From positions 1 through 64,000 of the forward strand of contig JAJDTR010000097.1 in the NCBI GenBank assembly GCA_022827055.1: a stretch of 64,000 bases of DNA, read 5' to 3'. A model generated the notes under the pieces. That model was given only the letters and a program-made list of their open reading frames with translations. It did no database searches and was not told where the DNA came from. The translations under genes and the position numbers were made by a program. Source of the stretch: Candidatus Poribacteria bacterium (GTDB taxonomy: Bacteria; Poribacteria; WGA-4E; JAJDTR01). Numbering within the stretch: the first letter of the stretch is position 1; every line of letters begins with the position of its first letter. Below are positions 1,482 through 18,640 of the stretch, piece by piece.

Positions 1482-4400
1482 TCACTTGAGTTTCAACGTA
1501 TCATCCACCTCGGCAAGTAACTCGTTAATCTTCTCCACTGCCTCCGGATCCGGCCGGGTTTCGCCGCCGAACTCAATACGGATATTAAACTTTAGACCTG
1601 TCCCGACAGCGGCCGTAGTAATGTCAGGTATCTGATCCGCCAAGTCCTGGATGCCGTGCGCTTCCAGCTCCGCCGTGGCAACTAGAACGTCCCGCGGATA
1701 CGGCGGCGGGTCGGGGACGTGAATCTCCTGCGGGATTTCAAGCTGGACATGCTGGGCGCTAGCGAATTCGCAAGGCCAGGCCGCACTGTCCTCGTTTAGC
1801 TTAATCCAGTTCGCCTGAATTGCGTCGCTGATCGCCGTCTTCACCGTGTGCCAAGGAAGAGTTAGCCCTTCCTTGTTGGAAAGCGCAGTAGCAAGCGCGA
1901 GTGCGTTAGTTTTCCTGTTCTGCCACGCCTTGGGGATTGCGGTGTCCATCAACTCTTGAACCGGAATCGGGGCGGGCGGCGGTCGAAACGACGCCGAGGC
2001 GCTAAGCACGCCGGGGGGCACGGCTTCATTCAGGATTGATGCCGGCCCGCTGGTCAACCACAACGTCCCCTGCTCGACAGCTTGGGACACCGCAGCGTCA
2101 ACCTCCGCCGGTTCGCATTCGGGTATGCTGAGCGGTTCTTCGTAACCCTCTTTTGGAATGTTCACGACACGTCCCCCCGCAAAGTAGTCGTATAGATTTT
2201 GGACGGTAATCTCGTCGGATGACCAAAGCTCCGGCAATTCGTTATGCTTGAGCAGACCTGGCGACAGTTCGCTCAACGTTGCCGACTCGGGCAACAGCAC
2301 CTCAAGCCCCGGCTCCTTGAGCGCGGATTCATCGATAGCCGTGCGCCAGAAGGTCTTCGTCGTCCTATCCGGACGCGCGTATCGTGCTACCCAAATCCCC
2401 TGTTGGACGCCGCCCACCACCGTATCCATAACCGCTTTTGGACGCAGCATCTTGGGCAGTTTTGGGGATTGGGCAAAGGCGCCCACCAAATCTCTGACAC
2501 GGCGCGACTGTTCACCTTCGCGCCACAGGTCGTAGGGACCGCCGGGCAACATCGCCTCCGCGCTGATGGCGGTCTCTTGGATGCGGGACCGTTTGTCGGC
2601 TTTGATGATTGTAAACAGGGGTTCATCGGTCACCGCCACTTTGAAGGCGTGAATCTCGTTGCTCTCGTTGACCGTCACCACGATAGAGTACGCGTGTTTG
2701 ACCGCATCCGGGATGCGCTTTCGCGCCGTGTCCGTCTCTCGGAGCAGCATCTGTTCGCGGATGGGATCAATCTGCTGATCCCTGAGTTGACTTCGGACCT
2801 CCTCCCAACCCAGATACTCGCGGACACGGTTGCGTACCACCTCAAGCCCATCCTTGGAGGGTACAGCGAGCACGAGCGCGTTGCGATTTGCGCGTGGACG
2901 GTCGTCTGCCGTTGTTTCATTAATGTACCGTTTGGTTTCGGCGCTCGGTTTGCCCGACTCCGAGACCGCACTTGGCGCCAGAACGGCGTAGTGGAATTCT
3001 CCATCGTCCGCGATGTCGCGCGGCCGCTCTGGAAGCGTGTGAACCTTCGCACCGGCGGCAGAGGCGCCTGAAGTGAGAGCCTTCTGTTTCTCAATAGCCT
3101 CAATGATCTTTGAATCGATTAGACTGGCGGGAACGCGGGTGGTGCAGGCGGCGTGGTGCATCTGACGCAGGTTGGGACGATTGCCCAGCCGCCACGCCTT
3201 CGGCAACGCCGCGGCGCCATCGGCATCGGATTCTCCAGTGTCAATCTCCTGCTCATCCAGAAACCATGACAACTCCGTCCAGCGGCGGAGCGCTTTTCCC
3301 AGCTCAATCTTATCCGGTTTAGCGGCGCCAATCAGCCTTACTAACTCCGGCGTCAGTGCCTTCTGACCGATCGGCTGTGAGCTGAGGAAAACCGAGATTA
3401 CCGCCTGCTCTATTTCGCGACTTGCGAGACCGGTCGTCTCGGACTGAATCGTACGTGCTTTTTCCAACTCCCCCTCAAGAATTGGTCCCCATTCCTGTTG
3501 TTGACCCGATGCCGAATCTACGCTCGCAAAGGAGGAAAGTTCGCTTGTAGCGTCGGCGAGGTCGCTTTTTTCCGAATCAGTCAGAAAGACGTTTGGTCCG
3601 ATTAGCGGGCTGTTATCCCATTTTTCCGCATCGCGCAACGCAATGGCAAACGTGCGCAGGATGCCGCGCGTACGCTGGAATCTTTCCAGTTGTGTCCAGC
3701 GGGTGTACAGGGTTTCGGTGAGCGCCGGGTGGAAGGGGTAACTGTCCAGATACCGTTTCTCCTCCGCCTTTTGCCCCTTCTTCGTATCCTCGTCAAGCGC
3801 CGCGATGCCGCGCAAGACCGCCGTAACTTGCGGTCGGAATGCATCCTGATCTTGCATGGATTCCAGTGTGAAGAAACGACGACGCAGCACCTCCGCCACG
3901 TCCTCCTTGCTCACCGGGCTGGCGTCCTCTTCCATCTGCCTGCCGAAGATATCGGACACGTCGGCGAAGAGTTCGCTACCGAGGTTTTTGTGCTTGTTGG
4001 GATCGGAGGCGCGCAACGATGCCACCATGGCGCAGCGATCCACCTTTACCACCGAACTCGTGAGGTGTTGGAAGAAACTGAGCAAGCGTCCTCGCCAATT
4101 CGAATCGGTTTCAACCATGTCGCGAAGATACATGAGCACCTCATCTAGGAGCACCAGCGTCCCGAGATTGTCTCGTTGTGGTTTCGACAGCAGATCTGAT
4201 AATACGGGTTCTGCCGGCGGCGTATCGCGCTCAAGATCTTTGCCATCGGCGTGCAGCAACCGCAGCCCCTCTTCGCCAGCAATCTGATAGGCGAGGATGC
4301 TCCAGGGACGCTTGAGTATTCGAAGAGATTCGTCGGGTCCGAGTGTTTCGACACCCTTTTCCGGATCAATCTTGTCGAAACACAACGCAGCGCACCGAGC

Positions 4401-4781
4401 GGACGGAGGCGTGTGTCCGATGTGCGCTTCAAACTCCGTAATTGCGGGCAGGCTTGGCAGTGCGGCGGGGCGCTCTAACAGATGCTTGAGCGTAATGAGC
4501 GTATGCGTTTTACCGCCGCCGTAGTTGACGGAGAGTGTGCGGTACGCCTTGTCGCTCTGACGCGCCAACCGCAGCGCGACATCCTTGACCAGTTCCCGTA
4601 GGTTATACGTGGGATAGGTGAGTGTGAAGAACTCGGCGGGATCCTCGTAAACCGAGCGTTTACCCTTTCGCATTACCACGTCGTACAGGTCGGCGGCGAA
4701 CACCGCCAGCGAAAGTTCACCGGTTCTCACATCGTCGCGCAGTTGGACGACCTGGTGCCACGGTTTCCATGTCGATCTCAT
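1482..4781 (-). CDS. DUF499 family AAA+ ATPase, defence-associated (COG1483-like)
   Basis: A 1099-residue P-loop ATPase, the last gene of the minus-strand defence island. Walker A is the glycine-rich GGGKTH at residues 88-93 and Walker B is VLLDEV at about 210-215, followed by further conserved ATPase segments; the C-terminal 400 residues are not assignable by eye. DUF499 proteins are known from defence islands, where they accompany DUF1156 methylases and Snf2-type helicases, and they resemble BrxC/PglY ATPases of BREX and Pgl systems. Here the methylase and helicase are upstream on the same strand. The ATPase probably powers a DNA-sensing or DNA-remodelling step; this is inference from the family. 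GAGGAT lies about 10 bases before the ATG. Confidence 0.85.
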   Translation of the reverse strand: MRSTWKPWHQVVQLRDDVRTGELSLAVFAADLYDVVMRKGKRSVYEDPAEFFTLTYPTYNLRELVKDVALRLARQSDKAYRTLSVNYGGGKTHTLITLKHLLERPAALPSLPAITEFEAHIGHTPPSARCAALCFDKIDPEKGVETLGPDESLRILKRPWSILAYQIAGEEGLRLLHADGKDLERDTPPAEPVLSDLLSKPQRDNLGTLVLLDEVLMYLRDMVETDSNWRGRLLSFFQHLTSSVVKVDRCAMVASLRASDPNKHKNLGSELFADVSDIFGRQMEEDASPVSKEDVAEVLRRRFFTLESMQDQDAFRPQVTAVLRGIAALDEDTKKGQKAEEKRYLDSYPFHPALTETLYTRWTQLERFQRTRGILRTFAIALRDAEKWDNSPLIGPNVFLTDSEKSDLADATSELSSFASVDSASGQQQEWGPILEGELEKARTIQSETTGLASREIEQAVISVFLSSQPIGQKALTPELVRLIGAAKPDKIELGKALRRWTELSWFLDEQEIDTGESDADGAAALPKAWRLGNRPNLRQMHHAACTTRVPASLIDSKIIEAIEKQKALTSGASAAGAKVHTLPERPRDIADDGEFHYAVLAPSAVSESGKPSAETKRYINETTADDRPRANRNALVLAVPSKDGLEVVRNRVREYLGWEEVRSQLRDQQIDPIREQMLLRETDTARKRIPDAVKHAYSIVVTVNESNEIHAFKVAVTDEPLFTIIKADKRSRIQETAISAEAMLPGGPYDLWREGEQSRRVRDLVGAFAQSPKLPKMLRPKAVMDTVVGGVQQGIWVARYARPDRTTKTFWRTAIDESALKEPGLEVLLPESATLSELSPGLLKHNELPELWSSDEITVQNLYDYFAGGRVVNIPKEGYEEPLSIPECEPAEVDAAVSQAVEQGTLWLTSGPASILNEAVPPGVLSASASFRPPPAPIPVQELMDTAIPKAWQNRKTNALALATALSNKEGLTLPWHTVKTAISDAIQANWIKLNEDSAAWPCEFASAQHVQLEIPQEIHVPDPPPYPRDVLVATAELEAHGIQDLADQIPDITTAAVGTGLKFNIRIEFGGETRPDPEAVEKINELLAEVDDTLKLK

Positions 4782-4981: not shown

Positions 4982-5632
4982 TCAAATAATCTCTCGAATT
5001 TTGTCTCGAAAATACTGGAAACTCGGCGATGCGTTGGCATCTACATCCATGTGCGGCGAGACATTCTCCGCCCATGTCGATTTTTCCCGACCCACTGCCC
5101 GCCATCCCCGCCTCTTGAGTGCCTCTGAGCCTTTGATGAATACGGCATCTGCCATGAGTTCCCACGTTCCGCAAATCGCGTCGTTTTTGTACCCATTCAA
5201 TACATTATCCCTAGCTTTCGGATAAGCCGCCTTAATCGCGGGCATATCGCCGAGCAGCCACGCTTCGCCCTCCTCCACGGCAATGCAAAACCGCGTCGTC
5301 GGTTTCGGATTGCACGCGTTTAGGACGGCAAAGAGTTCTTGGCGAAAGGTTTTCAGACACTTGTCATCCAAGTCGCACACCAGAATCACCGCTGCCGGAT
5401 GGTTAGAGGGATATCCGGCAAAGGTACGCCCATACCCCCGGAGTAGCCTCGGAAGTTGATCGAGCAGAATTCGCTCCCCCGCATCGGTGCCGCTCTGGAG
5501 GTTCCTGGGAATTCGCCCGACGCCTCGGTAAGGAATAACTTTGAATGTGTGTTGGTTCCCGATAATCTTGGGCATCAAAATATCAAGCGCCCTCTTTCCG
5601 GAGGAATCTTCGACGAGAATCTCAAAGTGCAT
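4982..5632 (-). CDS. DUF4276 family TOPRIM-like protein
   Basis: A 216-residue partner of the ATPase encoded just upstream; only 4 bases separate the ATPase stop from this ATG, so the two are translationally coupled. The N-terminus ILVEDSSGKRAL has the TOPRIM-type acidic residue (E8), VILVCDLDD (about 83-90) gives the DxD motif, and CIAVEEGEAWLLGD (about 117-129) is the typical DUF4276 signature. DUF4276 proteins paired with RecF/OLD-like ATPases resemble abortive-infection pairs such as AbiL, RloAB and PARIS in layout, where the TOPRIM protein is the nuclease-like effector. Nuclease activity is inferred. Confidence 0.8.
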   Translation of the reverse strand: MHFEILVEDSSGKRALDILMPKIIGNQHTFKVIPYRGVGRIPRNLQSGTDAGERILLDQLPRLLRGYGRTFAGYPSNHPAAVILVCDLDDKCLKTFRQELFAVLNACNPKPTTRFCIAVEEGEAWLLGDMPAIKAAYPKARDNVLNGYKNDAICGTWELMADAVFIKGSEALKRRGWRAVGREKSTWAENVSPHMDVDANASPSFQYFRDKIREII

Positions 5633-5636
5633 CCGA

Positions 5637-6917
5637 CTACCTCGCGTCCAGATAGTCGCTGTACCATAACCCGCCCAACGGCAATCCCTCGGCGGCCATG
5701 TTGTTCACAATCGGATCGTCGCTGGCGCGGCGAATCGTCGAAAAGCCGTCGGCGCCCTTCTCCAGAATCCATACCTCCTCCGGCTCAAGTGCATCGACGA
5801 AGTACGGCTGGTGCGTCGTCACAAACACCTGCGACCTCCTTCTGCGCCGACTGGCGTGTTTACGGAATTCGCTCGCTAAGGTTTCCAAGAGTTTGTGATA
5901 CAAGCCGTTCTCCGGTTCTTCGATGCACAGGAACGGGTGTGGTGTCGGATCTTCAAGCAGGAGGAGGTAGGCGAATAGCTTCAGCGTGCCATCGGAGACC
6001 TGCTGAGCGTAGAAGGGATCTTGAAAGCCCCTGTCGTTGAATCGGAGCAGCAGTCTGCCATCGCTGGTCCTTTCAGTATCAATCCGGTCGATGCCGGGAA
6101 TTTTATCCGCGATTCCGTTCAGGATCGCCTTGAAACGCCCCGGATGTTCGCGCTCCATGAATTGCACCACATTGCCGAGGTTGTCGCCGTGGATATTGAG
6201 ATGCTGCTGGGGACCCGCCAGCGGCAGGCTGCGCGCCGCGTCCGGCGTGAAGTAGCTGAGATGCCATCCTTCAATAAACCGGCGAAAATCCGAAATCCTC
6301 GGATGCTGTTTCAAAGCGCCGAGCGTGGCAATGCCGAGCTTACGCCGATCTTCCAATTGGATGAACTCAATCTCCCTAGATTCGTCAAATTTTATCAAGC
6401 TTCTAAAGCCGTCAGAATCAAGCCTTTCCATTTCTTCGTTAATTGGCTGCCCCGCGAGTGGCCCATTCCATGCGTAGCCCATTCCATTTCTGAGGTACAA
6501 AAAATAATATGGCAAATCGACTTGGTTGCCTTTTGGTTCATGACTAAGGCGTTCTCGCCAGACGTATGGGCGTCCGGAATCGTCCACTTTAATAGCGATT
6601 TGATAAGTAACGGAGGGGAGATTTTCGTGTTCTCTGTAGAGCACTTCAAACTCAATGGGACCGGTTTCGCCTTGCGACCGCAACGTCTCAAAGCCGCCGC
6701 GCCCCCGTTGGTCGCATGCCTCCTCGACACCGGATTTGAGGGCATCGGCAAGGAACCCGATCGCATCGAACAGCGCGCTCTTGCCGACCCCGTTCTTACC
6801 GATCACCGCTGTCATGCCGGTAAGAGGTTTACCCTCTGGCTGCTTCCACAACCGCCCGAGCGTGACATCCTTGAGCACCTTGAAATTCCTTACTCTGAAC
6901 CCTTCTATCTTTGCCAT
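5637..6917 (-). CDS. OLD/RecF-like AAA ATPase paired with DUF4276
   Basis: A 426-residue SMC/ABC-type ATPase. Starting at MAKIEGFRVRNFKVLKD, it has Walker A GKNGVGKS (40-47), an ABC-signature-like VSDGT (307-311), Walker B LCIEEPENGL (330-339) and the switch histidine in TTHQP (367-371). The frame is open to 6989, but the motif FRVRNFK normally lies at the extreme N-terminus, so the ATG at 6917 is preferred. Together with DUF4276 it forms a two-gene cassette set between the methylase and DUF499 genes of the island. The ATPase would be the sensor or regulator and DUF4276 the effector, by analogy with AbiL/PARIS-type pairs. Confidence 0.85.
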   Translation of the reverse strand: MAKIEGFRVRNFKVLKDVTLGRLWKQPEGKPLTGMTAVIGKNGVGKSALFDAIGFLADALKSGVEEACDQRGRGGFETLRSQGETGPIEFEVLYREHENLPSVTYQIAIKVDDSGRPYVWRERLSHEPKGNQVDLPYYFLYLRNGMGYAWNGPLAGQPINEEMERLDSDGFRSLIKFDESREIEFIQLEDRRKLGIATLGALKQHPRISDFRRFIEGWHLSYFTPDAARSLPLAGPQQHLNIHGDNLGNVVQFMEREHPGRFKAILNGIADKIPGIDRIDTERTSDGRLLLRFNDRGFQDPFYAQQVSDGTLKLFAYLLLLEDPTPHPFLCIEEPENGLYHKLLETLASEFRKHASRRRRRSQVFVTTHQPYFVDALEPEEVWILEKGADGFSTIRRASDDPIVNNMAAEGLPLGGLWYSDYLDAR

Positions 6918-7298
6918 GTTACAAGCCTTATGCGGAATCTGACCGGGACTTACCAGTAGGGAACGCTTATCTGCGTTCCTCACAACCATTTCGCCTACGG
7001 GCGCCGGACGACAAATCTGTTATTGCCGCGAGTTTATATTATAATATGTGATCGCTCTAGGTCAAGGCGTCTATTTTTTGAGGTCAATAACGCCTGAATC
7101 TAGATGTATAAACATATTCGATTTCAAATCACAAGTTGCCTCCCTGTAGGAGCGACCTCCCGGTCGCGACCTCGCGCCATGGGCAGCCATGAAGGTTAGG
7201 TTGAACAATCAAGCGAGTAAATAGCGAACAAGATTTTCTATCGCCCTCCCTATTCGGTCGGTTGATCCCGCCGGAGCTTTTAGAGAAAATCCCGCCCC
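6918..7298. other. Intergenic stretch with dispersed repeats
   Basis: No gene is visible. It contains a hairpin GCGACC-tccc-GGTCGC (7152-7167), part of a GTAGGAGCGACCTCCCGGT-type repeat, and from about 7202 a degenerate copy of the AAGCGAGTAAATAGCGA / CTATCGCCCTCCC dispersed repeat seen in several other gaps. It separates the methylase gene from the ATPase/DUF4276 pair, which may therefore need its own promoter. Confidence 0.55.
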
Positions 7299-10200
7299 CT
7301 ATTCGCTCTCCGCATGCGGTATATACATCTGCCCCGGTTCCCGAACTTCCCCCTGCGCCGCGACATGATTGCTCAACGCCTCAAGAATCGACCGCTCCTC
7401 CGACCCCTCGTCCGCCAACTCGATAAGCGCCTGGAGAATCTTGTTGAAAAGCGCGTCCCGCTGGAGACCGCGTTCGCTAAGGTAGTTGTCCACCTTGACC
7501 TGCTCCCCGGCGCGCCAGAGGTGCATCAGCTTGTGGGCTTGGTCGATGAGCGGCACCGGTTGCCCGCTCGGCGCTTCAAGACCCAAGTTGCGCTGCCCCC
7601 GGCGCTGCCACGGTTTGAGTTTGACCTTAGCGCCGCCTCCGCTTTCCGCTTCCTCGACGTCCTCGGCTTCAAGCGCGTCAGCCGTGCTTCCCGCCCCCGA
7701 TTGAGCCAAAAGGTCGTGCTGATTGACCAGCGCGGAGTCCGACAGGTTGCACGACAGCGCGTAAAGGATGCAGCCGCCGACCGGGGCATCCCCCATCCCG
7801 AAATCGTGGCGGTGGAGCAGGTAATACGTCGTCACGTCATCCAATCCTGCCGTAACCTCCTCCTCGCCATCTTGCGTTAGCACGCGACCGACGACGAAAT
7901 CGACCACCATCCGCCGTACCTCGCGCAGAAACTCCGAGACGCTCATCAGTTCGCCTTCGGTATCCGCCTTCTTGACGACCGGGTGCTTGCTGAAGGCTTC
8001 CAAGGCGGGACCTGTGGCTGCCCACACGAAATCGGGTCCCCGAATACCGGCGTCCCAGAAGTCGTGGAGTTGCCCCGTGATGTTCGTCCGCATCTCGTCA
8101 AGCACGTTGGAGTCCCAGCCCGGGCGGGCAGGTGGACGTTTTTTACATACCAGCCAAATAGACGATGCGAGCGCCGCCGATGTCTGTGCACGCATTCGAG
8201 CGGTTTGTTCCGTCTGAACTGGCCAACTTCCATCAACGACAAAGCCAGAACGAATGACAGCACCAACCAGTGTTTCCCACGCCTCGGGTCTTTTGTTGGC
8301 GAATACAATTACCAAGCGGCCGGTCGCGTTTAAGCGTTCCCAACAACGCCGAAATGCCTCAGCCATACCTCGTTCGTAATTCTCCTTTGATACGGTGCTA
8401 TCTCCGTTGAACCGACCTGCATCATCAATTAGTTCTCCGTCAGAAATTTCGTGGTTCCACTTTGGACCGGCACTCTTGGAAAAGGTGCTGGCGAAACCGT
8501 TGTTCGTATTCCCAATAGTTCTTCTGTTCCAAACATAGAAATAGTCCATAAGGTCCGAGTAAGGAATCGCGTCATAGTAAGGCGGATCTGTGATGATTAC
8601 ATCAAAGGTATCGGAGTGTTTCGCAGATGATGCGCTTCCAACTATAACTCTTGGATCTGGAGCGAGGTCGTTTGTAGCTATCGTGGCGGTTTCTAAGGCT
8701 TTACAAACAGCGTCAATGCACATAATCCATCCGCCCCGCACGTCATTATAGGGGACAGCCTCGGAATAATCCCAAGTTATTGGCAGCGCATACCGCACAA
8801 AAACATGTCCGATTGCCTCAACGCTAGTGATCCAAGACAGTATCGTGGAGTTGAAGTCAAGCATTCGGTCAAATCCACATGTGAGAATACCTACTATCGC
8901 TTGGCTCCAGTTGTAATCGTCATGATATTGATGAACAACGTCATCTGTTTCACGGATTTTGCTAACGAACTGCCCTAGACACAGAAGTTGCCGATTTGTG
9001 AACAACTTACGCCACGTATCAAACCCGTAGCCATCTACCGAAAATGCGCGGGATGCCCCGATCCCGGCTTTCGGAGTTGGCTCTTCCGGCAAACCGAAAG
9101 GGATGTCGGCGTAGAGAGCACGAAGTTGCTCCTCTGTCACTTGCGCTACGGTGCATTCATGGTCTGTCGGGAGGCGGTACTCCTTCCCCTTCTGCCCCTC
9201 TACCACGACAGCCGTCATCACCGCGTCCAGCCGCCCGGCGCGTCCCTCTAGCCGGATATCCTCCATCGTCATAATCATGCCGCAACACGGGCAACTTGCG
9301 CCGGTACGCGACATGGTGCCGGCTCCAAGGCGCTTGTCGTTTTCCCGCCGCTGCGCGCTGTTCCCGCCGTTTTGGGGCACGTCGGTCTCCACGCCAAACA
9401 GGACGCCGGTTCCTTCAGCGTTAGGTTCCATCGTCAACAGCACGCGCTTCCGCTCCTTCTTGCACAGCCAGCGCGTTTTGAGCAGCGGTAGCACCGCGCG
9501 GCAACCTTTGCAACTCACGGTACGCGCCCACAGGTAAGCCACCGTCGGCTTGGCAATCCAGCGCGGATTGCGCGGGTTCTTGAGGTAATCGTCGTCGAAC
9601 TCAAAGTTGAGCGAATCAATCTGCGGTACGCCGTCCTCGTCAACCTCCAAGAGTTGCGGAGGGGTCGGCTCGTAGTCCTGGTCGGGGTCGAGCGGTTCGC
9701 ATTCGGCGTAGGTGGGGTAGTACGCCGCCAACTCCGCCCGCGCCTTTGCCATCACCCACCTCCCCCAAGCGCGGACGTGCCACGCCAGGTCGGCTCGGAG
9801 CAATTTGTCGTCGTGGGGAAGGTGTTCCAACTGGATTACGTCCCCGTCGCCGTGGCCCAGTCGTTGGAGCGCTGTCCGCAACCGGTCGCTCTTGAATCCC
9901 TTGGCTTTCAGGTAGGATTCCATGAATCCGCGGTCCGCCACCGCGAAATCCGGCAACGGTCGCGTCTGCCCCGCCAGTTTCTGGGGGTATTCGAGCGTGC
10001 ACTTCAGGATGAACCACGCCACCGGATTGATGTCCATGGCGGTGACCTCGCAGCCGAGGCGCATGGCTTCCAGCGGGATAGCGCCGCCGCCGGCAAACGG
10101 GTCCAGCACCTTAGGAGCGCGTCCGCCGTAGGCTTTGCGGATCTCGTCCCGGAACCACTGGAGCGCGGGGTCATTCTCTTTGCCCCAGTGGAGGATGCCG

Positions 10201-10499
10201 CCCTCGGTTACCTCTTTGGTCTTCTCAATGTCCCTGCCGTTCAGACGTTTGCGTTCCGTCTTCTCGACGACTCTGCCAGCCATCCGTTCCAGGATGGCTT
10301 TGCGTTCGTCGTCGTTGCCCGGGTCGGGCAGCAGCGTGGCGATGAGCGCCGCGCGTGCGGCTGCCAGTGGTCGGCGTGCGGGCCAAATGTGCAGCGTGGA
10401 GATGTGCCCGTGCCGCACATTCTTCTCGTGCACCGAGTCGAGCGACACCTGCTTCAGCGGGAATGCGACTTCTATGAGGCGTTTGTCGTTAGTTGGCAT
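7299..10499 (-). CDS. DUF1156 Zn-ribbon adenine-specific DNA methylase (COG1743-like)
   Basis: A 1066-residue predicted N6-adenine DNA methyltransferase. The SAM-binding motif I is VLDPFAGGGAIPLEA (131-145), preceded by the family-typical N-terminus VAFPLKQVSLDSVHEKNVR and IWPARRPLAAARA. The catalytic motif is DPPY at about residue 634. Two cysteine pairs in the middle (SCKGC and CPCC) match the Zn-ribbon that defines the family. In known defence islands such methylases pair with DUF499 ATPases and Snf2 helicases, all present here. It probably marks self DNA or takes part in an exclusion reaction; a dedicated restriction nuclease is not evident. A short gene lies 15 bases upstream and is probably co-transcribed. 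Confidence 0.88.
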   Translation of the reverse strand: MPTNDKRLIEVAFPLKQVSLDSVHEKNVRHGHISTLHIWPARRPLAAARAALIATLLPDPGNDDERKAILERMAGRVVEKTERKRLNGRDIEKTKEVTEGGILHWGKENDPALQWFRDEIRKAYGGRAPKVLDPFAGGGAIPLEAMRLGCEVTAMDINPVAWFILKCTLEYPQKLAGQTRPLPDFAVADRGFMESYLKAKGFKSDRLRTALQRLGHGDGDVIQLEHLPHDDKLLRADLAWHVRAWGRWVMAKARAELAAYYPTYAECEPLDPDQDYEPTPPQLLEVDEDGVPQIDSLNFEFDDDYLKNPRNPRWIAKPTVAYLWARTVSCKGCRAVLPLLKTRWLCKKERKRVLLTMEPNAEGTGVLFGVETDVPQNGGNSAQRRENDKRLGAGTMSRTGASCPCCGMIMTMEDIRLEGRAGRLDAVMTAVVVEGQKGKEYRLPTDHECTVAQVTEEQLRALYADIPFGLPEEPTPKAGIGASRAFSVDGYGFDTWRKLFTNRQLLCLGQFVSKIRETDDVVHQYHDDYNWSQAIVGILTCGFDRMLDFNSTILSWITSVEAIGHVFVRYALPITWDYSEAVPYNDVRGGWIMCIDAVCKALETATIATNDLAPDPRVIVGSASSAKHSDTFDVIITDPPYYDAIPYSDLMDYFYVWNRRTIGNTNNGFASTFSKSAGPKWNHEISDGELIDDAGRFNGDSTVSKENYERGMAEAFRRCWERLNATGRLVIVFANKRPEAWETLVGAVIRSGFVVDGSWPVQTEQTARMRAQTSAALASSIWLVCKKRPPARPGWDSNVLDEMRTNITGQLHDFWDAGIRGPDFVWAATGPALEAFSKHPVVKKADTEGELMSVSEFLREVRRMVVDFVVGRVLTQDGEEEVTAGLDDVTTYYLLHRHDFGMGDAPVGGCILYALSCNLSDSALVNQHDLLAQSGAGSTADALEAEDVEEAESGGGAKVKLKPWQRRGQRNLGLEAPSGQPVPLIDQAHKLMHLWRAGEQVKVDNYLSERGLQRDALFNKILQALIELADEGSEERSILEALSNHVAAQGEVREPGQMYIPHAESE

Positions 10500-10514
10500 G
10501 GGTTAACAGAACTG

Positions 10515-10706
10515 TCAATCTTTCTTCAATTTTGCGGTGCGTTGAGTTTCAGCGGCGCGTCTCAGGGAATGCAAATCTACAACCTGCTGACCCTTGCCCC
10601 GCTTTTTGGATTGGAGATGGGCGACTAGAGCACGGATGTCGTAGCTGTGTTCTCGGGCGATGCCATCTTTGATTTTCCAGAGTTCCTTGATGATTTCGTC
10701 AGGCAT
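10515..10706 (-). CDS. Short conserved protein upstream of the methylase
   Basis: A 63-residue, highly charged protein beginning MPDEIIKELWKIKDGIAREH and followed by YDIRALVAHLQSKK. Its start resembles a widespread family of small uncharacterised bacterial proteins (pattern DxIIxELxxIRxxxxxxxNYDI) often found beside toxin-like or defence genes. An in-frame TTG two codons upstream is possible but the ATG is preferred. It ends 15 bases before the methylase start. Function unknown; an antitoxin-like or regulatory role is only a guess. Confidence 0.6.
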   Translation of the reverse strand: MPDEIIKELWKIKDGIAREHSYDIRALVAHLQSKKRGKGQQVVDLHSLRRAAETQRTAKLKKD

Positions 10707-10742
10707 TTTCAAGTGTTTCCATGAGTCTTAGAGAGTGCTTAA

Positions 10743-10951
10743 GAACCTGTTTGAAAAGTACAATTGTAGGGTGCACACTGCGCACCAGCCTCTAAAAGCC
10801 CCAGAGGGGCGGAAGGTGTGTAGAAACGCCAAAATCCCGTGTACCCAAGCCCCAGAGGGGCGACAGGTTGGTAGTAGACAAAAATAAAAACATGAAAAAC
10901 TGCCTACAAATAACCAAAAATGGCCTTGCTACCGATTATTCAAACAGGATC
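10743..10951. mobile_element. Miniature inverted-repeat element, family A, copy 1 (209 bp)
   Basis: The ends GAACCTGTTTGAAAAGT and ATTATTCAAACAGGATC are inverted repeats, flanked on both sides by TAA (10740-10742 and 10952-10954), a 3-bp TNA target duplication as made by some IS5-group elements. Inside are two copies of AAGCCCCAGAGGGGCG followed by rAAGGT/ACAGGT (about 10796-10816 and 10847-10867). No coding capacity. It sits between the TIR gene and the methylase operon. Confidence 0.8.
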
Positions 10952-11080
10952 TAAGTGGGAAGATGACTTTGATTAGAGATTTGTTGGTATATTCTTCCTA
11001 TCCAACTTCCCATCTCGACGCACTAGGGTTAGTGTATTTCTTTGAATAGACCGCCTGCCCTTTTACCGTCCTTACTTCAA

Positions 11081-13543
11081 CTATGGTTTTTGCAACGGAT
11101 TAGGCTGGTATTTAATATTTAGCGCCCGAAAGAGTTTCTCTCGCAATTTAAAATGAATTTCATGTGTGTTAGCATAATATTGTATCCCAAAAGAAAGTAA
11201 CCTTTTCGCAACAACATTCTGGTTTTTCTCAAACTTGCTTAGAGTGTCTATAATCTTCGTAACACTCTGAGAGTCTAGCTTTTCCGTGGTTTCTAAGAGA
11301 AAGAAAACATTGAGCAAATCGTAAGCAGGAGTGTCCTTTGGATTATACATGGTTTCCACAATCTCTTTTAACTCCGGTTTGCGAATGGAAGCCACGACCT
11401 TGTATAACAATGAGCCGATAGTTAAAAAAACGATGGTGCGGATTTGCTTCCTTAGAAATTTCTCAATCTTCCGTTTGTCGTCCTCTGGTATATCTTTATT
11501 CTTGAGTGCTTCAATTAAATAGCCTTCCAAACTCAGTATGCTATCACGATTGGTGCACGCATTGATTAGACGCAACCCGGCATCGGTTACGAAGTCAATT
11601 ACTTCTTCAATCTTTTCTCTAGGAAGGCTGCCGTACTTATTTCTCAAGATTTGCCCCAGAATCTCCATGTTCTTTAAGGCTTTGTAAATATCATTCAAAT
11701 CTTCATCGGAGAAGTCATCCTTCTCAGACTTACCATCGTTTGTAGACTCTTCTGTATCCTCCTCTGTTCTGTTTCGACGTTGTCGTTCTAATCGCCGCTC
11801 TTCTTCAACAGATTGATTGGACAGTATCTTTTCCGGCAATTCGCGTAGTGTATCTTCTAACAATTTGGTTTCGTTGATACTCAACGTGGCGGCTGCTGCA
11901 CGATTAAGAGTATCCGCCGTATGAATTAATACTGTATCAATTAAATCTTCATCCTGTGTATGATGGATGGTGAAAATAAGTATATATGCATTATCTTGCA
12001 AGTAGCTCTTTTCAGCGATTTCGCCAATGAGTCCTTCATGTACCTTATAATTTCGTGCAAAGAAATTTCCAAGGAAAAAGTAATAAATAAAGGGATAGTA
12101 AAATCGAAGTTTGCCTTTGTGAGTTCGTATTATTGATGAATTACTATCTACCAACCGGTTCACGACGCTTTCCTTTATTATATATTGAGCTTGGTAGTTT
12201 TCAAGGAATTGTTCAAATTGGTCTTGCGAACATCCATCGCGCCGTTTGTAAATTTCAAAAGCGAAATGGGTAAGGAAATTGAACGATGAATCAATATCTT
12301 CTTTTTGAATTCCGCGACTGATAAGTTGTGCTGTTATTAAGGCTTGATAACAGTGTCCGTAGGCTGTTATCTGTAAACTCTGGGGCATAAATGCTTCAAG
12401 TGTCTGAAGTATCGACAAGATGTAGAAGGGGTAGCGCGGGACAATTCTATTATGAAGTATTATCGAATTAAGCTTGTCTTCAATTTGATCAATTTGTCCA
12501 TGAGGAATTTCTTGCGTGTTACTAAGATTTATCCATCTCTTTATTAGATCTTCCTGTTTGGTGTGTCCCAAAGATCTTAGCGTCAACAAATCAAAATCGG
12601 CCAAGCTCTCTTCGTCGTGGAAATATGCGAGATAGTCATCCTCAGACATTACAATAATAATGCGGTCAAAAAACTCCTTGGCGAAGTCAATAAACTTTAA
12701 GCGCGTGTTGTGGCTGAAATCATCAAGGATAAGAAGTTTTGTCTGTTGGTTTCTCCAATACGAATAACTTCCATTGAATTGTTCCTGAAACTTCCGCTCA
12801 ATGAGTTTCTCATGATGGATTGGGCTCGTGATGTCGTTGCCGGAGATTAAAATAGTTGGGGTGCCGTCTTCGACTTCACTAAGAAACAGCTTTCGACAGA
12901 TTACAGTTTTACCGCTCCTTTCGTCGCCTTTTAGAATGACGTGCTTGCTTTTTTTCCAAAAATCTTGAAGTTCGCTTATTTTGCGCTCATCGTATTCGAC
13001 TCTTATATTTGGAAACACAAAAAGATCATCTAATTTTACATTTTCTTTGTGTTGTGATATGAACTCGACTTGAGTTAGCTCGTTCCTAAAAGCCTTTTTT
13101 ATGCAGAAGGGAATTGCATCCACAATGGCTTTGATATTCTCGTATATGTCGAGAAATGCGTCATCTTCATTGTCCCACTTAGTAATGGCCTTGCCATCTT
13201 TAGGTATCGCTCGCAGGTGGGAGATTGTTTGTAAATCTTTCCACGCACATGGACGTGCAATTACGGGGATGACGGTGGCGTTGGCTTTCTCCTTTTGCTC
13301 TAAGGCTTTACGCATCTCCCTTTTGCATTCGCGGGATGCGAAATAATCAGGACTTAACAGTAATAGAATTAGGTCAGACGATTCTAGATGAGTATCTATT
13401 TCTTTGTGAATATCCTGACCTGCTAGAATCCTTCGGTCATGCCATTCGTCTATATGACCTTCGTCTTTAAGAATGGAAAGGTGCTTCTCAATGCGTTCAC
13501 GTGGATGCTCATCCTTGTGGCAGTAACTATAAAAAAGTTTCAT
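11081..13543 (-). CDS. TIR domain-STAND NTPase defence protein
   Basis: An 820-residue protein with an N-terminal TIR domain (about 1-140; MKLFYSYCHKDE start, SPDYFASRECKREMRKAL with E76 in the position of the catalytic glutamate) and a STAND-type NTPase (Walker A GDERSGKT 206-213, Walker B LLILDD 270-275). The C-terminal half is alpha-helical with a charged linker near 560-600 and would be the sensor. Bacterial TIR proteins of this kind cleave NAD+ on phage sensing and stop growth; that activity is inferred. The gene is visibly more AT-rich than its neighbours, suggesting separate acquisition. GGAGG lies 11 bases before the ATG. It is bordered by a small element downstream. Confidence 0.85.
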   Translation of the reverse strand: MKLFYSYCHKDEHPRERIEKHLSILKDEGHIDEWHDRRILAGQDIHKEIDTHLESSDLILLLLSPDYFASRECKREMRKALEQKEKANATVIPVIARPCAWKDLQTISHLRAIPKDGKAITKWDNEDDAFLDIYENIKAIVDAIPFCIKKAFRNELTQVEFISQHKENVKLDDLFVFPNIRVEYDERKISELQDFWKKSKHVILKGDERSGKTVICRKLFLSEVEDGTPTILISGNDITSPIHHEKLIERKFQEQFNGSYSYWRNQQTKLLILDDFSHNTRLKFIDFAKEFFDRIIIVMSEDDYLAYFHDEESLADFDLLTLRSLGHTKQEDLIKRWINLSNTQEIPHGQIDQIEDKLNSIILHNRIVPRYPFYILSILQTLEAFMPQSLQITAYGHCYQALITAQLISRGIQKEDIDSSFNFLTHFAFEIYKRRDGCSQDQFEQFLENYQAQYIIKESVVNRLVDSNSSIIRTHKGKLRFYYPFIYYFFLGNFFARNYKVHEGLIGEIAEKSYLQDNAYILIFTIHHTQDEDLIDTVLIHTADTLNRAAAATLSINETKLLEDTLRELPEKILSNQSVEEERRLERQRRNRTEEDTEESTNDGKSEKDDFSDEDLNDIYKALKNMEILGQILRNKYGSLPREKIEEVIDFVTDAGLRLINACTNRDSILSLEGYLIEALKNKDIPEDDKRKIEKFLRKQIRTIVFLTIGSLLYKVVASIRKPELKEIVETMYNPKDTPAYDLLNVFFLLETTEKLDSQSVTKIIDTLSKFEKNQNVVAKRLLSFGIQYYANTHEIHFKLREKLFRALNIKYQPNPLQKP

Positions 13544-13683
13544 GTCGCTCTAAACCTCCTGGTTATTCGTTTGTAGTAGTACCCCAAAACTTCCAAATTC
13601 TAGATAAGCCAATAGGGTTTTCTGTTTGTAAATGCCGTCTTTTCAGCGCGGAATGAACGACAACATCGCACTCTTCGCGACAA

Positions 13684-14292
13684 CTACTGATGATTACTAG
13701 AAACAAGCTGACCTTCCTTGTCAAATTGCAGGGGATTGATACGTCGATAAATATTTAACCTAACATCTTCGCGCATACCCGCCTCGACAATATGCAAGAC
13801 AAGCTGGGATTCTTCGATTCGCCGTTGCATCTGCCTCGGAAGGTTGTTATAACGCTTTCCGTTGAACCGCACGAAATATTCTAATTTCTTTAAGGGAAAT
13901 TCGTTTGTGACGTAGTTGTAAATTGCCGACAGCCGTTGGACGCCATCAACCACCGACCAGTTATAACTCTCATCTGCAGCAGCGTAAAACACGGGGATGG
14001 GGATCCGAAGGAGCAGAGACTCTATCAATCGAGATTGGCGCACCAAAGACCAAGCAGACGCGCGTTGAACATCCGAATCCCAATAGATTTCACCATTCCT
14101 GATTTGCGAGATGAGCCGTTCCACGCTGACATAGGTTGTTCCAAATCTTACCTCGGCGGGATCTAATGGGCATTCACTCTCAGTGTTTGAATCGTCCAGT
14201 TCCGCTACTAAACCGCTGTCTCGTTCTGCCTCAATATTGTCATTCTTGCCGGTTGCTGATTCGAATGCGTTGGGGCGTGTTTCCTCGGTCAT
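13684..14292 (-). CDS. DUF262 (GmrSD-N/ParB-like) protein, C-terminally truncated
   Basis: A 202-residue protein whose middle shows the DUF262 fold: the WDSDVQRASAW segment, then VVDGVQRLSAIYNYV corresponding to the usual DGQQRLT motif, and NIYRRINP near the end. In typical members the RIN motif is followed by TGG-x-L-x-x-QE and 100 or more further residues; here the frame diverges after RIN and stops 16 residues later. The N-terminal 45 residues are acidic and low complexity. DUF262 domains occur in type IV restriction enzymes (GmrSD) and in abortive systems. This copy may be a remnant or a regulatory fragment; the core motif is also changed (GVQ for GQQ). Confidence 0.65.
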   Translation of the reverse strand: MTEETRPNAFESATGKNDNIEAERDSGLVAELDDSNTESECPLDPAEVRFGTTYVSVERLISQIRNGEIYWDSDVQRASAWSLVRQSRLIESLLLRIPIPVFYAAADESYNWSVVDGVQRLSAIYNYVTNEFPLKKLEYFVRFNGKRYNNLPRQMQRRIEESQLVLHIVEAGMREDVRLNIYRRINPLQFDKEGQLVSSNHQ

Positions 14293-14358
14293 TTCAAAAC
14301 CTAATCCTTTTGAAAGTCTTTAATTCCTTCATCGGAAAGAAAGCAATTGGTGCAGAAC

Positions 14359-14375
14359 GGTGGGCAGTGCCCACC
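14359..14375. repeat. Short perfect palindrome in the gap upstream of the DUF262 gene
   Basis: GGTGGGCA and TGCCCACC flank a single G. The unit GGTGGGCAGTGCCCACC followed by CTACAAT has the look of a dispersed hairpin repeat. No terminator-like T-run follows on either strand. Confidence 0.5.
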
Positions 14376-14454
14376 CTACAATTAAGTTGACTATCTAATT
14401 TTCACTATACACCAATGAACCGTCGTAAGACAACCGAAAACAGCGTTGAGATGC

Positions 14455-14751
14455 CTATATCTTCCGATTGACATTGAGGTTAAACTGATCGCCGGCAGGC
14501 GGAGGAACCCATCCATTTCGCACCAGCGCGTCGAAGTAATCACGCCTATCCTGATCGGGCGTCTCACTCTTATGCATCACGGCAGTATAGATAATGTTGA
14601 CGGTTCTTCTACGCCGCATTGTGTCTGTCCCGATTTGACCGTCAGCAACGGCGGTTGTGAGTGATTGCAGCCTGTAACCGTCTTTTTCCAACTGGTTGAT
14701 TTGAGTTTCCATTTCGGATGGTCTGTTATACACTTCAAAGATCTTGTACAT
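14455..14751 (-). CDS. Small DUF4177-like protein
   Basis: A 98-residue protein starting MYKIFEVYNRPSEMETQIN with a DGYRLQSLTTAV segment and an IIYTAVMHKSE beta-strand end, the pattern of the small DUF4177 fold (a ferredoxin-like sheet with a W/Y-E-x-hydrophobic motif). Function unknown. Without the small element inserted at 14791-14992 its start would lie about 36 bases after the helicase stop, so it was probably the second gene of the helicase operon. GGAGG lies 14-15 bases ahead of the ATG, which is long. Confidence 0.6.
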   Translation of the reverse strand: MYKIFEVYNRPSEMETQINQLEKDGYRLQSLTTAVADGQIGTDTMRRRRTVNIIYTAVMHKSETPDQDRRDYFDALVRNGWVPPPAGDQFNLNVNRKI

Positions 14752-14992: not shown

Positions 14993-17900
14993 TTATTCGG
15001 CTGCCTCCATAATATCTCCCGGTGAAATGGTGAAGGCAGATAGTTCGCGGCTGCGAACGAGGAGTTTGCCGAACGGATCGCGCACCCGAACGAGCCGAGG
15101 CCGCGGCGTCGCACAGTCGAAAACGGTGTACAGCCAGTAATCGTCCCTCAGGTTACATGCGCGCGCCCACTCGTTGTCGGAGATATGCACATTACCTGAA
15201 CCGGCGCGCCCCTTGACCTCAATGGCGCGCTCCTCGACGGATACATCGGCGCCCACGGGATGGCGAGACTTCAGATCAAAACCGGGCCAATCCGTCAACC
15301 CGGCGCGGCGGGCGAGTTCCGGCTTCGAGACATCCGTTACCTCGGCGCCGAGACTCTCCTCGTAGGCGGTGGCAACCTTCACCGCGATAGCTTCAACATC
15401 GGCATCGTAACGCTCAAGCTCCTCCGTCCCCTGAACTGGTACCACCAAGGCGTGCACCAGGATTTCGACTTCACCCACTTGAATGAGCTCCGGTTCGGCT
15501 CGCAGTTCGGCGAGGCACCGGTCTCTGGAGGCGGTCAGACGGCGCTGGCGCCCTTTGACGGCCGCGAGTTCCGCCCCCGCGTCCCGATTCCCGTCGCGCA
15601 CCAGTTGGTTCAGCCGCGATCGGGCAGCCGCAAGTTCGGCAGCCTGAAAATCAAAGCCGCGATTGACCGACTCGGCGCGCGCGGTCAGATTGTCGAGTCG
15701 TTCCCCTCGATGGAGTTGCACCATCCGATCGCCTATCTCCTCACGCGCAAACGTCAAGGCGTCTGCCGCCATGCCGCGCGCCAACGTAGCAAGCGGTACG
15801 CGGCTCGGCGCGAATCCCTTCGCGCCCCTGAGCAGCAGCAGGTGTTCCACCGGAAGTTCGGTCACGCCCCCATCGCTTGATTGGCGCAGCCCGACCAACC
15901 GCGATTCCAGGGGCTTGGGCGCGTTTTCACTTTGACCATGTTCGTCAAACAGATTAGCCGCCTCCGTTTCTCCGTTGCCCCGCTGTTCGGCGGAAACCCG
16001 CGCGATGTGGAACAGATACGCCTCCGTCGCGTAGGGATCGCTAAACACGGCGCCCTGTCGTCCGGCACGCCCAAACCGCTCTAGGATGGCATCCGAGAGA
16101 CAATCAAACACCGGCTCGCCGGGGTGCATCCATACGGCCTCCTCTCGATTCGCCGGTTTGTTGACCGTGAGCAGTTCGCGTGCACTCGCCGAATACCGCT
16201 CAAGCGAGGCGAGCAGGGGATCGGTTGCGCCGGGTCGGTCAGGTATCAAGCTGAAGGCGGTGTCCGGATCCCCCTCGATACGCAGATCGAGCAGCGGTGC
16301 GGCACGCTCCACGAATCGGCGCACGTAGCCGGGGAGCAGATGACGGTAGATTTCCTGATCGGTTTCCTTGTTGAGTTGCGGCAGCCGCTGACGCACGTCG
16401 CCGCCATCCCCGTACAGGATACGCTCCTTATGTTCGAGCGCCAGAACCTGATTCTCCGTAAGCTCTCCCTCCAATTTCTGGGCGACTGCATCGGCATCTT
16501 CGGTGAGCGCCTGTCGCAGATAGTCCGTCATCGACACCTCCTCAAACAGACGCCCCACCACGTCGAACACCTTGTCGGATTGTAGTTGTTCCCGGATAAC
16601 CTCCAACTTCTCCAGCAACGATCTCAGCACCCGTCCCTCGCGCGTACCGCCCGCCACGAGATTGAGGATCACCACCGGGTCGTGTCTTTGACCGTAGCGA
16701 TGAATGCGTCCCATCCGTTGCTCGAGCCGCGCCGGGTTCCACGGGATATCGTAGTTCACCATCAACCAGCAGAATTGGAGGTTGATTCCCTCACCGGCTG
16801 CGTCCGTCGCCACGAGGTAGTTTGCCCCGCCTTCCGCCGCCGACTGTCGGAAAAACTCGACCTGCCGCTCGCGTTCCTGATAGTCCAATCCGCCGTGGAT
16901 GAGCGCAACCTGATCGGTGAATCCGAGTCCTTCGAGCCGACGCACCAAGAATTCCGCCGTGTCGCGGTACTCGGTGAAGATGATAAACTTCTGGTCGCTG
17001 TAGTTCGAATCGCGAAGCACCTCCCGCAGTTTCTCGAACTTGGATTCTTCGCCGGCACCAAACAGCCTCTGTGCCTTCTTCAGTAACTCCTCAACTTTGT
17101 GCTTCTCCACAATCAGTTCGGCGAGGCTGACGGCTACGGTGCCGCCTAGCGCCTCGTTCTCATAATCTTTGTGCTCGTCCTCGGTCTTCTCATCGGCGGT
17201 CGCCGTACTGAAGAGGTCGTCAAGATCATCTAATTTCCGCTGCTGATTGGCGAGTTGCGCCTCGGTGAGTTCCCCGTTTCGGAGGTTCTCAATCAACCCG
17301 TCGAGGTTTTCTTTGCGGCGCTCGAACGATCGCATGAGCGCATAGGTGGAGCTGGCGAGACGGCGTTGGAAGACGCTCATCGCCAAACGTGCGGCGGAAC
17401 GATTCAGAACTCCCGCGCGGTTGTAGTAGTCGCGGATGTATTCCGTCGTTTCGTCATACAGTTCCTGTTCGCTTCCTGAGCCATCCAAGAGATTGTAGCT
17501 CAACGTGTCGCAGTTTCGCTGCGGGTACAGGGGTTTCCCGTTGAAATGGAGCATCTCCTCCTTCGTGCGGCGGATGAAATGTCGCTCGTGAGATTCACGG
17601 GGAAACCTGTCGAAAGCGTCGTGCGTTGAAAGCGTTTCCGGTAGCAGCAGACGCCACAGAAAATAGTAGGGAGAATCCTTACCCATGTGCGGAGTTGCCG
17701 TCAGCAGCAGCAGGTGTCGGGCTGACCAAGGCAGTTCCCAGTGCTCTCCGTCTGCTTCGGCACCGGCGATGGCTTCCGCCAGCCTGTACCGGTTCGTTTT
17801 GCGGACTCGGTAATCCGGTTGGCGGACCGCGGACAGTTTGTGTGCCTCGTCAAAGACAACGAGATCGTAGGGTTCGGTTTGGAGGTCCTTAAGATGATTG

Positions 17901-18574
17901 AACACCCGCTCCGTGACCAAGGTGTCCACGCTGACGATGACCCGATCGCCTTCCGGACCGCTAAAAGGATTTCCGGTTCGCGCATCCTCGCCCCTGATGA
18001 TGCGGAACGACAGGCGAAACAGCTTTCGCATCTCCTGTTCCCAATTTCCCACGAGACCGGCGGGCGGCACGATGAGTATGCGGCGAATCAGTCGGCGGGA
18101 CAACATTTCGCGGACGTACAACCCCGTCATGATGGTCTTGCCGGCGCCCGCGTCGTCCGCCAGTAGGAATCGCAGCGGCGTCTGTTCCAGCATTCTTTCG
18201 TACACGGCGATGCGCTGATGTGGGAGCGGGTCGATTAGCGAGGTTTCAGTGGCGAATGCCGGGTTGAAGAGGTGGCCATAGGCGAGACGGTGCGCCTCCG
18301 CGACTGCCGCAACGGCGTTCGGATCGGCGGCGAAGTCCATGCTCGGCGCATCCTCGGTTACGGGTTGCACCTCTTGACGCCCGTGACTGGACTCCGTCAG
18401 TTCTAGGATACGCTTCCACGCCAATTGGTTTGGGCGCGACTGTCCATTCTCCCACCGATTGACGGTGGCGAAGGAAACGCCGACGAGTTCCGCGAATTGG
18501 GTCTGTGTCAAGCCTTTCGTCTCGCGGAGGTCTTTAATTTTCTGGGGATAATCGTCTGGTATAACGGTTGACAT
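14993..18574 (-). CDS. HTH-Snf2 helicase-DUF3883 defence protein
   Basis: A 1193-residue protein with three parts. Residues about 12-65 form an XRE/Cro helix-turn-helix (LRETKGLTQTQFAELVGVS, then NRWENG). The centre is an Snf2/HepA-type helicase: ADDAGAGKT (motif I), VVFDEAHKL (II), LLLTATPH (III) and QRMGRIHRYGQ (VI). The C-terminal 150 residues contain AIEVKGRAG and the NEWARA pattern of DUF3883, a domain with a restriction-endonuclease-like core. Helicases of this type accompany DUF1156 and DUF499 genes in known islands. The fused XRE domain with an inverted repeat over its own promoter suggests self-regulation. The ATG at 18574 is preferred over 18607 because the HTH begins right after it. 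Confidence 0.87.
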   Translation of the reverse strand: MSTVIPDDYPQKIKDLRETKGLTQTQFAELVGVSFATVNRWENGQSRPNQLAWKRILELTESSHGRQEVQPVTEDAPSMDFAADPNAVAAVAEAHRLAYGHLFNPAFATETSLIDPLPHQRIAVYERMLEQTPLRFLLADDAGAGKTIMTGLYVREMLSRRLIRRILIVPPAGLVGNWEQEMRKLFRLSFRIIRGEDARTGNPFSGPEGDRVIVSVDTLVTERVFNHLKDLQTEPYDLVVFDEAHKLSAVRQPDYRVRKTNRYRLAEAIAGAEADGEHWELPWSARHLLLLTATPHMGKDSPYYFLWRLLLPETLSTHDAFDRFPRESHERHFIRRTKEEMLHFNGKPLYPQRNCDTLSYNLLDGSGSEQELYDETTEYIRDYYNRAGVLNRSAARLAMSVFQRRLASSTYALMRSFERRKENLDGLIENLRNGELTEAQLANQQRKLDDLDDLFSTATADEKTEDEHKDYENEALGGTVAVSLAELIVEKHKVEELLKKAQRLFGAGEESKFEKLREVLRDSNYSDQKFIIFTEYRDTAEFLVRRLEGLGFTDQVALIHGGLDYQERERQVEFFRQSAAEGGANYLVATDAAGEGINLQFCWLMVNYDIPWNPARLEQRMGRIHRYGQRHDPVVILNLVAGGTREGRVLRSLLEKLEVIREQLQSDKVFDVVGRLFEEVSMTDYLRQALTEDADAVAQKLEGELTENQVLALEHKERILYGDGGDVRQRLPQLNKETDQEIYRHLLPGYVRRFVERAAPLLDLRIEGDPDTAFSLIPDRPGATDPLLASLERYSASARELLTVNKPANREEAVWMHPGEPVFDCLSDAILERFGRAGRQGAVFSDPYATEAYLFHIARVSAEQRGNGETEAANLFDEHGQSENAPKPLESRLVGLRQSSDGGVTELPVEHLLLLRGAKGFAPSRVPLATLARGMAADALTFAREEIGDRMVQLHRGERLDNLTARAESVNRGFDFQAAELAAARSRLNQLVRDGNRDAGAELAAVKGRQRRLTASRDRCLAELRAEPELIQVGEVEILVHALVVPVQGTEELERYDADVEAIAVKVATAYEESLGAEVTDVSKPELARRAGLTDWPGFDLKSRHPVGADVSVEERAIEVKGRAGSGNVHISDNEWARACNLRDDYWLYTVFDCATPRPRLVRVRDPFGKLLVRSRELSAFTISPGDIMEAAE

Positions 18575-18593
18575 GTCTTTCACGATCCCTGTA

Positions 18594-18640
18594 GGTAAAA
18601 GGCACAACCTATTTTACCCTGTCCATCGTGTGCATGTCAA
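18594..18640 (-). promoter_or_regulatory. Sigma70-like promoter with a candidate XRE operator for the helicase gene
   Basis: On the minus strand TTGACA (18640-18635) and TAAAAT (18616-18611) are separated by 18 bases. A perfect inverted repeat GGTAAAA (18594-18600) and TTTTACC (18612-18618) overlaps the -10 element. A repressor bound there would block the promoter; the helicase's own N-terminal HTH is the obvious candidate. Confidence 0.6.

Follow-up and report, generated by a model that had tools for sequence, protein, structure and literature searches.

A TIR-STAND protein as putative exchangeable cargo of an Hma operon in Candidatus Poribacteria

The closest described counterparts of the locus considered here are the Hma systems, first named in PMC8565338 and now classed as DUF499-centred BREX-related (BR) systems (PMC12839542). 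The present locus shares with them a helicase, a DUF1156 methyltransferase, a DUF499 ATPase and backup modules housed inside the core locus (PMC8565338; PMC12839542). The published backups are nucleases, an association with Septu having already been published (PMC8565338), whereas here the interior of the operon holds a TIR-STAND gene, with ThsB-TIR genes in three other loci. The word “TIR” is absent from the main text of PMC12839542, which likewise makes no mention of NLR-like receptors plugged into DUF499/Hma operons as cargo. Backup effectors are a known theme among modification-based systems, and the protein adds a member to an established kind of receptor; TIR-STAND as swappable Hma cargo would be new. 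A second comparison is provided by PrrC (EcoprrI) and RloC, likewise suicide effectors linked to a modification system, and TIR-STAND also has relatives nested in Type I systems. The R-M enzyme linked to PrrC keeps it silent, and the T4 peptide Stp activates it (PMC2610378). PrrC is a tRNase, and for the TIR-STAND protein coupling to Hma is a candidate relation.

The Hma operon and its variable interval

The window, the whole 64,000-nucleotide stretch of DNA analysed, contains the following features, given here in operon order with the cargo interval first.

10494 to 14398, no strand: cargo interval, non-syntenic with the same-genus genome G001 (blastn)
14993 to 18607, minus strand: HmaA, an SNF2 helicase with an N-terminal HTH and a NOV_C (PD-(D/E)XK-like) C-terminus (PADLOC, 4.5e-167)
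14359 to 14383, no strand: dispersed palindromic repeat of 25 bp adjoining the right breakpoint (101 genome hits for its family)
13684 to 14292, minus strand: truncated NsnA/DUF262 (GmrSD_N) gene, 202 aa, lacking the C-terminal ~190 residues by comparison with the 498-aa gene that genome G004 carries in this slot
11081 to 13543, minus strand: TIR-STAND gene, 820 aa (domain searches, motifs, predicted fold, conservation in relatives)
10743 to 10951, no strand: IS5-like MITE of 209 bp with inverted ends, flanked by TAA duplications at 10740-10742 and 10952-10954
7299 to 10499, minus strand: HmaB, a DUF1156 DNA methyltransferase (PADLOC, 4e-115)
5637 to 6989, minus strand: HEC-01A, an OLD/AAA_21 ATPase carried as cargo between HmaB and HmaC (conserved in G004)
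4982 to 5632, minus strand: HEC-01B, a DUF4276 protein and partner of HEC-01A (conserved in G004)
1482 to 4781, minus strand: HmaC, a DUF499 AAA+ ATPase (PADLOC, 8e-74)

Along the minus strand the order is HmaA, the cargo including TIR-STAND, HmaB, HEC-01A/B and HmaC. All three Hma genes are present in one locus and on one strand, the operon is an Hma system, and the modification-type system that a first-pass annotation had placed around the TIR-STAND gene is thereby given a name by PADLOC. It is probably a Type-1 BR system, a type defined by a C-terminal active PD-(D/E)XK nuclease on the helicase and by the absence of PglZ/iSTAND and DUF3780. Residues 1072-1168 of HmaA constitute a NOV_C domain with an E-x-K motif, a putative nuclease, and neither PglZ nor DUF3780 was found among the island ORFs scanned. 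Two small ORFs adjoin the core genes, namely a 98-aa ORF (14455-14751) beside HmaA, also kept in the same-genus G001, and a 65-aa antitoxin-like ORF (10515-10712) directly upstream of HmaB, for which no partner toxin was seen.

The G001 genome carries a syntenic Hma locus (QOR, HmaC, HmaB, HmaA, VanZ, IlvD) at 80–89% nucleotide identity, with an HATPase and a metallophosphoesterase (MPE) in place of TIR-STAND in the slot between HmaB and HmaA. Homology ends at position 10493, six bases from the HmaB start codon, and restarts at 14399, ahead of the small ORF conserved beside HmaA in both genomes; from these edges, ~3.9 kb here occupies the place of ~4.2 kb in G001. Remnants of the HATPase/MPE cassette were sought in the window and none were found. 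The slot of G004 contains NsnA (DUF262), an AAA gene, an MPE and an HATPase, and the truncated NsnA of the window is a probable relic judging from its length against the G004 gene. The HmaB-HmaC interval also differs among these genomes, since HEC-01A/B is found here and in G004 while in G001 a small RelE-like gene sits there together with an IS200-like transposase, which indicates that both Hma intervals vary independently.

The TIR-STAND gene had been described as an AT-rich cargo insertion bordered by a miniature element, and these statements fared differently. The gene is strongly unlike its neighbours in composition, as opposed to identical with them, having a GC content of 0.393 (GC3 0.408) against a mean of 0.572 (sd 0.056) for 56 genes of at least 200 aa from three stretches of the same genome, the lowest value, tied with one other gene; the flanking HmaA and HmaB have a GC3 of 0.68-0.70. 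AT-richness is, however, weak evidence of insertion, because it is a trait of the whole family: 24/24 members are more AT-rich than their own host flanks (mean difference -0.137), even on an Acidobacteriota contig with flanks of 70% GC. Low GC is consequently a poor guide to the time of the gene's arrival, and AT-richness as sole proof of a recent insertion was rejected. The miniature element is real but borders the gene on one side only, between TIR-STAND and HmaB; towards the other edge there is the 25-bp palindromic repeat. The MITE has 52 matches in the genome, other copies also showing TNA duplications, and as an ordinary dispersed element lying wholly on one side it was rejected as the vehicle of the cargo. 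The two ends of the MITE do not enclose the TIR-STAND cargo. Repeat-mediated recombination at the cargo edges is possible.

The cargo interpretation itself draws on other evidence. The closest relative of the protein comes from Acidobacteriota (Vicinamibacterales, 51% identity), those from other Poribacteria reaching only 35–37%, and in the protein tree it pairs with the Vicinamibacterales homologue (support 99/99), the other Poribacteria grouping in another part of the tree. Together with the different cargo in syntenic G001, this tree points to horizontal replacement and supports TIR-STAND as exchangeable cargo of the Hma operon. The swap would have been directed into the window, a direction read from a comparison without outgroup polarisation. 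A first search of genome contigs with the TIR-STAND protein as single query gave no match.

Architecture of the TIR-STAND protein

The protein is composed of a TIR domain (residues ~1-145), an nSTAND NTPase (~190-500) and a helical C-terminal sensor (~500-820), and the earlier claim that TIR, Walker A/B and a long helical sensor are joined in one protein is borne out by Pfam and PADLOC, by conserved motifs and by the all-helical region ~500-820 of the model. Pfam TIR_2 matches residues 4-108 (5e-17) and the PADLOC ThsB model, the best-scoring one for the TIR, residues 2-143 (1e-48), while PADLOC PDC-S60 covers the STAND module and the helical C-terminus (residues 147-812, 2.8e-43). Pfam nSTAND_NTPase4 and nSTAND3 scored under the Pfam cut-off, and the STAND assignment therefore relies on the PDC-S60 match, motifs and fold. 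Walker A (GDERSGKT) occupies residues 206-213 and Walker B (LLILDD) includes D274; among the relatives G211 and D274 are each conserved in 20/20 and K212 in 19/20.

An AlphaFold2 model built from a 20-member alignment reached a mean pLDDT of 85.8 and a pTM of 0.77, with helices throughout residues ~500-820. An alignment of all family members proved too diverse. The putative catalytic E76 lies within helix 71-87, corresponding to a TIR fold with its glutamate in helix C, and is conserved, like S70 and C73, in 20/20 relatives; the glutamate on which the earlier annotation had staked its TIR prediction is thus in place. In a PDB profile search the TIR region matched best the CRISPR-associated TIR of Cat1 (7.6e-10), with the C-x-x-E motif aligned, along with plant and animal TIRs. 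By residues and modelled fold the domain is a predicted NADase, and the conserved Walker motifs together with structural matches to RPP1 and NLRP3 similarly identify a predicted STAND NTPase.

The top PDB match of the whole model is the plant TIR-NLR RPP1 resistosome (E 4e-9, 552 columns), followed by the NLRP3 NACHT. Global TM-scores against PDB matches are low (0.25), so the likeness to NLRs concerns domains and domain order. Plant TIR-NLRs (RPP1, ROQ1), the best structural match, share the TIR glutamate and the order of TIR and STAND-type NTPase, whereas the window protein is bacterial, lacks LRRs and ends in a helical array. Avs (AVAST) and other bacterial NLR-like proteins combine a STAND switch with an interchangeable N-terminal effector and a C-terminal sensor, the same STAND-switch layout as in TIR-STAND, although no Avs model of PADLOC matched the protein. 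The only matches in a viral fold search were remote NTPases and a single NLR-like protein from a phage. PDC-S60 has the STAND and helical sensor (147-812) in common with the protein, but a second PDC-S60 model and a relative in G163 have a metallophosphoesterase N-terminus where the window protein has its TIR. At locus L081 (8409-11447) a metallophosphoesterase replaces the TIR on the same STAND and sensor, which amounts to effector swapping within the PDC-S60 family.

The strength of the ThsB match raises the reading that the TIR acts as in Thoeris, producing a messenger of the cyclic ADP-ribose type that acts through a separate effector, and leaving NAD+ undepleted. No ThsA-type neighbour was seen near TIR-STAND, and TIRs joined to a STAND switch usually act as effectors directly, making such signalling quite improbable; a STALD domain search of the genome found no match, but its control was equally silent, so that the search carries no information. 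The truncated NsnA next door and the nearby MITE could further suggest that the TIR-STAND gene is itself a decayed, non-functional passenger. Its ORF (11081-13543, minus strand) is full-length and intact from an ATG start, however, with a strong ribosome-binding site (AGGAGG) upstream, all motifs preserved and a high-confidence fold, and decay is very hard to credit. A gammaproteobacterial TIR-STAND gene (L138 9974-12970) is interrupted, apparently by a transposase insertion.

Occupants of the HmaA-HmaB slot

Across Hma loci holding both genes, the HmaA-HmaB interval contains co-directional genes in 23/30, and slot GC is below core GC in 19 of the 23 occupied slots; the sample is drawn mostly from Poribacteria, and its related loci do not count as independent cases. 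Identified occupants include Septu PtuA/PtuB, PARIS-like AriA/AriB, OLD, ThsB_TIR (three loci) and NsnA. The interval may accordingly be regarded as a predictable place to find new defence modules, several occupants being without a known family.

TIR-like slot genes occur at L094 4971-5866 and L095 10817-11712 (ThsB_TIR by Pfam) and at L096 4870-5735, which encodes a near-identical protein; an 8xMP membrane protein lies next to the L096 gene, with a similar neighbour in L094 and L095. In two loci (L049 12485-16507; L051 13137-17183) the cargo consists of a metallophosphoesterase with a PDC-S60-like N-terminus and an HATPase, a pair that may form an undescribed two-gene module. Slot genes without a Pfam match were seen at L053 10650-11546, L111 12126-12767, L084 6342-7178 and L058 6364-7455, the first three also without a PADLOC match, and all four are candidates for new defence genes.

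Proposed function and relation to Hma

The preferred explanation, considered likely, is that TIR-STAND is an NLR-like receptor of bacteria that acts against phages and travels with Hma as second-line, exchangeable cargo. Its activity, trigger and outcome are modelled on known TIR and STAND families, and NADase activity, oligomerisation, trigger, abortive outcome and co-expression with Hma are all presumed in what follows. The NAD+ depletion and abortive layer proposed in the earlier annotation are reasonable expectations from these families. In the uninfected cell the ATPase would hold the protein inactive. Upon infection the helical C-terminus would detect a cue, the STAND module would oligomerise and so activate neighbouring TIRs, and E76-dependent cleavage of NAD+ would lead to growth arrest or death of the cell. 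Phages escaping Hma would thereby still be blocked at the level of the population. Counting against this explanation are the ~580 bp, including the MITE, between TIR-STAND and HmaB, the sub-threshold Pfam scores of the STAND part, the low global TM-scores, and a nearness to modification enzymes no greater than that of other TIR genes.

A related reading, about as likely as not, treats the gene as a self-sufficient abortive-infection gene in a permissive site, linked to Hma by shared transcription or linked inheritance at most. It overlaps with the preferred explanation, which does not require coupling. The diversity of slot occupants, known stand-alone systems among them, speaks for such an unlinked passenger, as do the varied contexts of the TIR-STAND family, which includes plasmid matches of the same architecture in Vibrio parahaemolyticus, one of them from a shrimp-disease strain. 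On the other hand, 23/30 loci have their cargo on the operon strand, and identifiable cargo is nearly all of defence type, so the slot is not neutral as to the kind of gene it receives.

Coupling would be closer if TIR-STAND were physically or functionally bound to Hma as a guard, silenced by it and freed when a phage anti-restriction protein inhibits it. The gene is nested between Hma core subunits, and relatives occur in Ssp phosphorothioate operons of Poribacteria and, in three Type I loci, between hsdS and hsdR (L121, L123, L133; HsdS-to-TIR gaps of about 44-76 bp), an hsdS-TIR-hsdR nesting that resembles the layout of PrrC. That the same slot takes unrelated modules speaks against an interface made specially for Hma. 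Of the family members, 12/33 had a modification enzyme within 6 kb, as had 14/40 other Poribacteria TIR genes (Fisher p=1), in a comparison that used home-made HMMs and flanks of 6 kb, truncated in places by contig ends, between sets differing in taxonomy and with several weak control hits. A tie to modification is consequently not special to the TIR-STAND family, and specific enrichment near modification enzymes was rejected; this negative control also favours the unlinked passenger. With many family loci having no modification enzyme detected within 6 kb, a PrrC-like guard of Hma is unlikely, and equally doubtful is the broader proposal that the family guards Hma, Ssp and Type I systems, nested between their subunits and triggered by phage anti-restriction proteins. 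If true, these guards would be an NLR-type, NAD+-depleting counterpart of PrrC, and TIR-STAND in Hma offers a testable case for the question whether a suicide module sitting inside a modification system acts as its guard, in the manner of PrrC.

Other TIR genes of Poribacteria are often found near proteins of ~1100-1270 aa with a weak N6-methylase match, as at L172 6453-10217 and similarly in L168, L169, L171, L178, L185, L193 and L195. The L172 protein, the one scanned, is an Eco57I-type restriction-methylase.
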